This document shows, piece by piece, positions 14,257-63,613 of a stretch of DNA of 64,000 nucleotides (positions are counted from its first letter, which is position 1; the number at the start of each line of letters is the position of its first letter). The notes beneath the pieces are model-generated. The model saw only the letters and a program-made list of their open reading frames with translations, searched no databases and was not told the origin of the DNA. This DNA is from Collinsella sp. zg1085 (GTDB taxonomy: Bacteria > Actinomycetota > Coriobacteriia > Coriobacteriales > Coriobacteriaceae): assembly GCF_018889955.1 (NCBI RefSeq), contig NZ_CP076545.1, forward strand, positions 434,001-498,000. The letters run 5' to 3'. The translations under genes were made by a program, and so were the position numbers.

Positions 14257-14704
14257 AAGCAGCCTTTCAGATGTTTTGATAGCACAAATGGGTCAAAATG
14301 ATGGGTGAGTATAGCATAGGGGTGTTAGTCAATATTGAATAGCATAGGAGATTTAACTTAGTACTCGCTTATGCGGCTTGTCTGGATTACACGTGCTGTT
14401 GCTCACAGAAAACCGCAGGTAGAACATGTGAACAACTTAAGTTTAGAGAGCAAATCTGCCTAGTGTACGAATTTTCCGGCGGTGCCCACGCATACTTTGC
14501 TTAACTAAAGCGTAAATCCTGCGGAAATGGAGAAAAGTTCGCTTGCACCAACCCCCTATACTCGAGGTGCGAACGAAAAATCGTACATTTAATTGATTTG
14601 CCTAGAAATGGAGGCTGTATCTGCATGCTCTGCAATACAACTACTCTGCAAAACGCTGTTTTGAAAAGCAGCTATGATAGATGCGTTAACGTCTAGGAGG
14701 ATTC
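14257..14704. other. Intergenic region with inverted repeats, no gene
   Basis: 448 bp without a credible gene. A hairpin pairs GTTC..GCACC (14537-14549) with GGTGCGAAC (14566-14574). A wider inverted pair, TGTACGAATTTTCCG near 14463 and CGAAAAATCGTACA near 14575, encloses it. AGGAGG at 14695-14700 is the ribosome binding site of the next gene. The repeats could be operators or a decayed element. Confidence 0.4.
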
Positions 14705-33082: not shown

Positions 33083-33270
33083 GGTGTATGCAGCTGGGTC
33101 TTAGCTTTACTGGAGCCAGCGACAGGAATCGACACGCGGTATAAATACCGCGTGAGTCGCTGCGCCAGCCTTTGGCTGGCTTGCGCGCTTCGCTGGAAAA
33201 TAGCTTACGCATTTTCTCAGCTTCGCGCCCTCTCGCGGGTTCAATTCCTGTCTAAAGGGTGCTTTCTAGC

Positions 33271-33302
33271 AAAAAACCCAGTTCAGCATAGGTGAACTGG
33301 GT
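33271..33302 (-). terminator. Terminator inside repeat copy 1 (minus strand)
   Basis: Stem ACCCAGTTCA/TGAACTGGGT; read on the minus strand it is followed by TTTTTT. Same sequence as the tRNA-Thr terminator at 33474-33505. Confidence 0.7.
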
Positions 33303-33473
33303 CTTAGATTTACTGGAGCCAGCGACAGGAATCGACACGCGGTATAAATACCGCGTGAGTCGCTGCGCCAGCCTTTGGCTGGCTTGCGCGCTTCGCTGGA
33401 AAATAGCTTACGCATTTTCTCAGCTTCGCGCCCTCTCGCGGGTTCAATTCCTGTCTAAAGGGTGCTTTCTAGC

Positions 33474-33505
33474 AAAAAACCCAGTTCAGCATAGGTGAAC
33501 TGGGT
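33474..33505 (-). terminator. Terminator of tRNA-Thr (minus strand)
   Basis: Perfect 10-bp stem ACCCAGTTCA/TGAACTGGGT with a TTTTTT tract on the minus strand, 11 bp past the tRNA 3' end. It is part of the 203-bp repeat unit. Confidence 0.85.
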
Positions 33506-33516
33506 CTTAGATTTAC

Positions 33517-33591
33517 TGGAGCCAGCGACAGGAATCGAACCCGCAACCCACTGATTACAAATCAGTTGCTCTACCGTTGAGCCACGCTGGC
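33517..33591 (-). tRNA. tRNA-Thr (TGT)
   Basis: On the minus strand: acceptor GCCAGCG/CGCTGGC, D-arm GCTC..GAGC, anticodon stem ACTGA/TCAGT with loop TTTGTAA (anticodon TGT), T-arm GCGGG-TTCGATT-CCTGT and an encoded CCA. Its 3' end is the source of the ends of the adjacent 203-bp repeats. Confidence 0.93.
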
Positions 33592-45807: not shown

Positions 45808-46157
45808 TGACAAAGCGAGGACTTGCATGCGGCGATTGAGTGCGTCTGAACCGTTTTAACAGAAGTAGGGAATTGTACGCGTTGAGTTGTTGTAACAGAA
45901 ATGGACAATTGGACGCGGTTTGGTCGTTGTGACAAAACGGGCAATTCAACGCGGCTGGGGCGTTTTGACTAAAGCGGACAATTCGACGTGAATGGTTTTG
46001 ACTAAAACGGGCAATCTGGCAGTAAAAACTGACAAAAATGGCCAATCTGGTAATAAACCCCCTATAGCCAGAAAATCAGCAACCTATCTACCTGCGGGTT
46101 TATAAAATAACTATCAACCCACGGGGGTTCTACACTGCCAAATTGCCCATTTCTGTC
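45808..46157. repeat. Hairpin/iteron element, locus 1
   Basis: Seven degenerate direct repeats with core GACAAAACGGGCAAT start near 45808, 45858, 45894, 45931, 45967, 46000 and 46031; the spacing shrinks from 36-37 to 31 bp. The last copy (46031-46050) pairs in 17 of 20 positions with an inverted copy at 46138-46157. Inside, AACCCCC (46056-46062) faces GGGGGTT (46123-46129) around a TTTATAAAATAA stretch. The spacing is not a multiple of three, so coding is unlikely. It is homologous to 62857-63225 in mirror orientation. Confidence 0.85.
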
Positions 46158-62735: not shown

Positions 62736-62856
62736 TGAGCAGCGTGTGTTTAACGGGCTGTGGGTTTTATTCGTGAGATTCGCTCACCTGATGCTTTTTT
62801 AACGAGAAAACTTACATGTAGTGAAGTCTGTTACTTAAATGATAGATGTGCTTTTT

Positions 62857-63225
62857 GACAGAAATGGGCAATCTGACACTAAAGAACCCCCGAGGGTTGG
62901 TAGTTATTTTATAAAACTGCAGGTAGATGAGTTGCATATAAAAACCCAATAGGGGGTTAATTACCAAATTGCCCGTTTTTGTCAGAATTTAGTGCCAGAT
63001 TGCCCATTTCTGTCAAAAGTACTGGCAGCAGTACCACCACATTGCCTGTTCTGCCAAAATCGATACATCAATCTATCACCGCATTGCCCGTTTCAACCAA
63101 CAGCATTAACAGCTGCCTTACCGGATTGCTCGTTTCAACCAACAGCATTAACAGCTGCCTCATCGGATTATCCGTTTCCACCAAAACAGGTAGCGGCCGT
63201 ATCACCCACATTGCCCGCCTCCACC
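62857..63225. repeat. Hairpin/iteron element, locus 2
   Basis: Mirror-oriented homologue of locus 1. Left arm GACAGAAATGGGCAATCTGA (62857-62876) pairs with CCAAATTGCCCGTTTTTGTC (62964-62983). Inside, AACCCCC (62885-62891) faces GGGGGTT (62952-62958) around TTTTATAAAAC. To the right lie six more inverted-orientation copies of the core ATTGCCCGTTTC at 62995, 63037, 63079, 63121, 63163 and 63206, with a period of 42-43 bp after a first step of 31. Two neighbouring units share AACAGCATTAACAGCTGCC. Open frames through it are shadows of the repeat. Confidence 0.85.
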
Positions 63226-63240
63226 AAAACTGCTGCCAGC

Positions 63241-63613
63241 CGCTTGCTTATGGCTTGGCTCAATTGGTTGCCACTTAGCAAGCACTGTTAAAAAACTTTG
63301 GTGACGGAATCAGGCTACCCATAAATGACTTGCCAATCGTTATTAGTCAAATTAGGGGTGCTACAAAAATATTCCATAGTTGAGCTTGTGGAAAACTATA
63401 TGCTCAACTTATGTAAAAAATAACAATTGTTAGATTTCTTTACTCAAAATATAGCCTCTGAACTGTAGTGGAGTTTTGGAGTAGCTACACGTGAGATTCA
63501 ACGAAGATGTTGAGAAGATTTAGGCTAGATTGTTGAGCAGTTTTCCACCGATGAACTGCGTATATGTAAAACTTTAGTTCGCTTTTTTCGTTCTAATTTG
63601 CGATGCTCTCTAC
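63241..63613. other. AT-rich intergenic region before the last gene
   Basis: About 370 bp, more AT-rich than average. It holds two weak DnaA-box-like words (TGTGGAAAA near 63390 and TTTTCCACC near 63541), which are not convincing as an origin. The leader TTCGCTTTTTTCGTTCTAA precedes the partial gene; no strong ribosome site is visible. Confidence 0.4.

Follow-up and report, generated by a model that had tools for sequence, protein, structure and literature searches.

The window analyzed here is a 64,000-nucleotide stretch covering positions 434001-498000 of the host chromosome (genome G000), a single contig of 1,720,218 bp with dnaA at position 628. An inverted-repeat element of 166 bp (locus 2) occupies window positions 62853-63018, and an inverted-repeat search showed that its two 31-nt arms (62853-62883 and 62988-63018) are 97% complementary and are separated by 104 nt. 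The parts of this element and those of a related copy in the window (locus 1) are listed in Table 1. A preliminary description had placed a second hairpin/iteron element with a regular 42-bp period at 62857-63225; the element and its period are real, with array steps of 42-43 bp, but the true start is 62853, the element itself ends at 63018, and the array continues to ~63246. Steps between successive right-arm units are 31, 42, 42, and 42 bp, and a larger, 42-nt unit recurs at steps of 42, 42, and 43 bp. The 31-bp first step that had been noted beside the hairpin exists, but it is part of the basic element, and the extra array consists of the 42-bp part only. Allowing up to 3 mismatches, the arm motif ATTGCCCRTTTYTGTCA has 11 matches in the window, compared with 0.62 expected and with 0 of 100 shuffles reaching 11, and 9 of the 11 fall within locus 1 and locus 2.

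Table 1. Coordinates of the element parts at locus 2 and of the related copy at locus 1
Feature	Window position	Strand	Basis or remark
Locus 2, left arm, one site, TTTTGACAGAAAYGGGCAATNTGGCA type	62853..62883	+	Inverted-repeat search; position constant in the copies measured
Locus 2, inner inverted repeat, left half AACCCCC	62885..62891	+	Near-invariant, 28 copies
Locus 2, mini-hairpin AACCCCCGAGGGTT (AACCC..GGGTT)	62885..62898	+	Common to class 2
Locus 2, core AAAACTGCAGGTAGATGAGTTG	62913..62934	+	Part common to Coriobacteriales
Locus 2, inner inverted repeat, right half GGGGGTT	62952..62958	+	Near-invariant, 28 copies
Locus 2, right arm unit 1	62960..62985	+	Position +53 from the core in nearly all copies
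Locus 2, right arm unit 2; the basic element ends here	62988..63018	+	Complementary to the left arm
Locus 2, extra array in which right-arm units decay (42-43-bp period)	63033..63246 (end approximate)	+	Most other copies are without an array
Locus 1, class-1 copy, 81% identity	45996..46161	-	Whole-genome copy search
Locus 1, extra arm array, steps 33-37 bp	45852..45995	-	Arm-unit spacing

Copies were counted in whole-genome searches, and their surroundings were read over ~0.55 Mb of the genome. The kinship that had been proposed between the locus 2 hairpin and locus 1 on the opposite strand was borne out, and further copies exist: the host chromosome holds 30 copies of this type (class 1) and ~29 of a paralogue (class 2), and relatives occur across the order. 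The left arm has an identity of 0.94 across 28 class-1 copies. In nearly all of the 29 class-1 copies measured, the left unit lies at -59 and the right units lie at +53 and +84 from the core, a few copies deviating by 1 nt. The class 2 arms (TTTGGCAAAAATGAC...GTCATTTTTGCCAAA) are unlike those of class 1, whereas the layout is the same, with a left arm, the core AAAMCYGCAGGTAGAYGAGNYG, and then two right arms 31 bp apart. Save for copies with added units, class 1 measures 165-166 bp and class 2 measures 162-163 bp, and a GTAG tetranucleotide sits in the middle of the core.

Extended arrays are present in only 4 of the 30 class-1 copies (at genome position 420110, at locus 1, at locus 2, and at the sister of locus 2), and their periods differ, being 31 bp at 420110, 33-37 bp at locus 1, and 42-43 bp at locus 2. 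The sister copy, at 498655, 1.8 kb downstream of locus 2, differs in its hairpin at ~2 of 168 positions, and its array is rearranged, has lost ~44 bp, and has diverged from that of locus 2. Extra arrays decay faster than the hairpin, in keeping with the earlier view that the hairpin is kept while arrays come and go. The source of such arrays, including the 42-bp array here, would be an arm duplicated locally in tandem, and the arrays would decay because selection acts on the basic module only. Locus 2 and its sister are direct copies that flank a single, defence-like DUF559 protein gene (genome 496850-498939, window 62850 onward), and the element at 374884 precedes a gene for a C-5 cytosine DNA methylase.

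Many copies reside in composite intergenic units of ~1.4-2 kb, in the order class-3 inverted repeat (CTAGTGTACGA...TCGTACACTAG), class 2, class 1, and three REP-like palindromes. One composite that carries class 3 is L121:6854-8280; in it, as in many others, class 1 is followed by three distinct long palindromes in a constant order (GACCAAGGTATTGCGTTCGG.., ACGAATGATTGCG.., and GGTGGCATAGCTTTTC..GCGAAGCGC..). Class 3 has a conserved word of its own, TCCTGCGRAAAYGCYG, which was found in 33 of 249 Coriobacteriales genomes, up to 14 times per genome. A diverged copy of this word lies in a repeated segment at window 14448-14598, and CCTGCGG occurs both in the word and in the reverse of the class-1/2 core. 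The window also contains a 203-bp tandem duplication (33094-33538; 2.2 copies, 99% identical) that adjoins a tRNA cluster and overlaps its tRNA at 33520-33591.

Intergenic regions that carry elements are far longer than the others (median, 1222 versus 113 bp), and the 36 such regions comprise 10 between convergent, 23 between tandem, and 3 between divergent genes. Orientation is even relative to tandem genes (18 same, 15 opposite) and neutral relative to replication (16 of 30); the bias in chromosome position is not significant (KS p = 0.17), and a ter-proximal deficit (6 versus 12, p = 0.04) was a post hoc observation. Given the lack of strand bias and of a significant position bias, we rejected replication-polarity or fork-trap sites as a reading. 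An intrinsic terminator was discarded on the grounds that TTTT precedes the arms and AAAA follows them, which is the wrong order, and that the mini-hairpin is among the weak terminator-like hits, on both strands. Stop codons often precede standalone copies, as they would a 3'-UTR element, but overall orientation is unbiased, and the promoter-like arrangement TTGGCA-core-TATAAT, seen at one locus, is not general; these two readings were likewise rejected.

The preliminary description had also suggested that the core of the hairpin is selected or recently copied. The hairpin is indeed conserved, but what was called the core there merges lineage-specific arms with a core of 17-22 nt that is shared across the order. 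The 17-mer core AMCYGCAGGTAGAYGAG was found in 32 of 397 Coriobacteriales genomes, compared with five single hits for a reversed control pattern, and its occurrences are mostly intergenic and mostly flanked by inverted arms 13-47 bp long. At 19 of the 30 loci fetched in that search, the core is enclosed by arms that match exactly as inverted repeats over 13 bp or more, up to 47 bp. Arm sequences show no relation from one lineage to another (for example, CAAAACTATGCCGGWTTAC, GCAAATGTGGGGATAAA, GTTGTGCGCACT, ACTGTACGAAC, GAGTTTCTGGCCA, and TACCCCCGTTTAGGGGACGGTTTTG), and in a gap-free alignment on the core only ~22 columns are conserved. Since the core served to retrieve the loci, part of its conservation in this set is built in; the independent evidence for it is the enrichment over the control together with the surrounding arms. 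Claims about the core rest on the 17-mer because a shorter 14-mer, AAAMCYGCAGGTAG, is enriched yet also matches coding sequence. The class-1 sequence was absent from all 39 other genomes searched. In other genera (group f5; L205, L208, and L215 from G090, G093, and G108), the 14-mer core is flanked by palindromic arrays of quite another kind, such as GTTGCAACCTSAGGTTGCAAC, GTGAGTACACT, and CTACCCCACAACCGA. In the same-genus genome G052 (L128, 8700-9850), two direct element copies flank a defence-like Mrr restriction endonuclease gene.

The genus family A (154 bp) is present in 24 of 45 species, mostly in 2-7 copies each. Across 40 sequences it is essentially gap-free at 154 bp, with a mean pairwise identity of 0.94-0.96 in the outer arms, 0.89 in the core, and 0.56-0.65 in the spacers. 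At one site that lies between convergent genes and is orthologous in 11 species, identity is 0.91-0.97 in the arms and the core, and it is 0.73-0.79 in the least conserved stretches of the spacer and of the flank that separates the two elements of the site. A second orthologous site carries, depending on the species, no module (G012), A, A plus linker, A+B, A+B+A, or A+A, and its junctions are consistent with B having been lost or gained through recombination between GGATCATTTTKGCC linkers. The linker GGGGACGGAGGAAAACGGATCATTTT between modules (L183, L186, L255, and relatives) resembles a separate REP-type palindrome and may be the RAYT-mobilized part of the mosaics.

Presence and absence at an orthologous site are also what a pure MITE family would produce, that is, a nonautonomous repeat with terminal inverted repeats whose transposase has been lost from the host, which has no host function, and whose core is a site for a transposition cofactor. 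Like MITEs, the elements are short (<~600 bp), noncoding, and dispersed, with inverted ends, and their arms are common within a lineage and different between lineages. In MITEs, however, the center is usually the least conserved part, whereas here it is the most widely conserved, and the ends are exchanged. An intact transposon with these arms was not found in the host genome, where arm matches are element copies; the empty site in G012 is without a clear target duplication, although the flanks there have diverged; and inert insertions would not be expected to keep their arms and core conserved at one site in 11 species. We consider such a family rather unlikely. Half-elements that might have been the ends of a larger transposon have other explanations, the one in G007 being a Mutator/IS256-family insertion sequence inside one family-A element (L248:7370-9040) and those in G010 and G044 lying at contig ends.

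Folded as DNA, the locus 2 element has a z of -9.0 relative to dinucleotide shuffles, and this strong hairpin potential could be read as a structured RNA in which a long stem made by the arms, and an inner stem, present the conserved core in an apical region. The inner stem is kept in several families, and folding of the apical domains is slightly more favorable than that of shuffles (mean z, -1.7 over 72 related sequences). The covariation test that had been proposed for the hairpin, run within the host genome, gave little signal: paired cells amount to 97.1%, compared with 96.6% after shuffling; 17 of the 28 outer pairs never vary; pairs that change on both sides number 4 against 2.1 expected, a value reached in 44 of 500 shuffles; and the covariation score is 0.064 versus 0.054 for shuffled data, reached in 8 of 500. 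The arm positions that vary most seem to do so independently on either side, as would positions that a binding protein does not read. It is by their sequence that the arms are conserved, as would be expected of repeated binding sites for a protein, and not via compensatory changes within copies. In family A the arms have been replaced on both sides together (31 versus 9 sequences), as a stem would require, but this covariation is a single block exchange, and the arms are otherwise near-invariant. Repeated right arms are hard to reconcile with a single stem, and a search of Rfam gave no match to the element, which disposes of a known RNA family.

Weak covariation within the genome, rigid lengths, and random orientation relative to genes thus favor a double-stranded DNA that is probably recognized by protein over an RNA. 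Two observations speak for a folded form, whether RNA or cruciform: the mild apical folding, and the very long arms in the termite-gut genome G390, which differ between copies yet are still complementary, a pattern easier to reconcile with folding than with an unvarying protein site. We nevertheless judge a structured RNA to be quite improbable.

A conserved core with lineage-specific repeated sites and arm arrays also recalls an iteron/hairpin origin of replication or transfer of the HUH Rep type, with a nick site as the core, replicon-specific iterons, and scattered remnants. Many copies are dispersed over one chromosome, however, and a scan of the genes beside both window loci showed an ordinary chromosomal set and no Rep. 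The composite matches no plasmid or phage record among those searched, which led us to reject a phage or plasmid origin, and the arms are absent from IMG/VR. We regard an HUH Rep origin as extremely unlikely. In two related viral contigs from IMG/VR (L152 and L153), the core is intergenic, with no clear arms.

In Escherichia coli, BIME-1 (RIB/RIP) has an IHF-binding sequence flanked by two REPs in inverted orientation, and BIMEs form mosaic chains (PMC2817692); a role as barriers between supercoiling domains has been proposed for BIMEs (PMC6907758). Most REPs are located where the neighboring genes are tandem or convergent (PMC3733652). BIME-1 is the closest known kind, with a matching general design: in both, two inverted arms surround a conserved central sequence that is probably bound by protein, and both are extragenic, chained into mosaic arrays, and placed between tandem or convergent genes. 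The module chains of our element vary between species, as those of BIME mosaics do. Unlike the BIME-1 units (REPs of the GTAG type), the arms here are 13-47 bp long, are mutually unrelated, and have no GTAG foot; and unlike BIME-1, the element swaps its arms between lineages while keeping its center, has a right arm doubled at 31 bp, and belongs to another phylum. Its core is unlike the IHF consensus.

With REPs and REPINs (PMC2817692, PMC3733652, PMC3116915), the element shares palindromic intergenic repeats, inverted pairs, and lineage-specific sequence, but GTAG lies in the middle of the core and not, as in REPs, at the foot of a 20- to 40-bp palindrome. A RAYT (Y1_Tnp, PF01797) was present in six of eight genomes and was found neither in the host genome nor in the incomplete genome G390; the core was absent from the four RAYT loci read in relatives. 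We therefore rejected a Y1 transposase/RAYT as the mobilizer, and membership of the REP/RAYT family fails on the lack of a host RAYT and on the position of GTAG.

Taken together, the comparisons describe a module whose length is fixed, at ~150-170 bp across the measured families. Its inverted arms are specific to the lineage and enclose an inner inverted repeat and a core that is order-wide. Modules join other palindromes in chains that form mosaic islands in intergenic DNA, and their number varies between species. The explanation that we prefer, with about even confidence, is a BIME-like, noncoding intergenic DNA element that is bound by protein as double-stranded DNA and is not a gene or an RNA; it looks like a chromosome-organizing or mobile repeat. 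On this explanation two putative factors would bind the element: a conserved host protein on the core and, on the arms, a fast-changing, sequence-specific protein that could be either a nucleoid protein or the transposase behind an earlier spread of the module. The arm factor would be seated at a fixed helical spacing, the 31 bp between the right sites approximating three turns, and modules would be gained and lost partly via recombination between linker repeats.

A further-reaching reading, which we think possible but doubtful, is that the elements are an ancient, order-wide class of DNA sites in the Coriobacteriales, in which a 17- to 22-bp core would be held by a putative conserved binder, the inverted iteron arms would be replaced wholesale as a fast-evolving partner protein changes, and the whole would be selected in mosaic islands as a nucleoid or domain-boundary system unrelated to REP/RAYT. 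A prior description of these elements was not found in the open literature searched, the coverage of which was limited.

Repeats of the REP/BIME type are best known from the Proteobacteria and are tied to RAYTs. Here, a mosaic repeat of REP/BIME-like design occurs in a distant actinobacterial order of gut bacteria, in a host without a RAYT, and at one locus the growth of mosaic repeats can be followed through a series of species (none, A, A+B, A+B+A). The usual pattern is reversed, in that the center is deeply conserved and the arms are disposable, and because of this the function of such repeats becomes testable: one protein would be expected to track the core across the order, and another would be expected to track each arm type.
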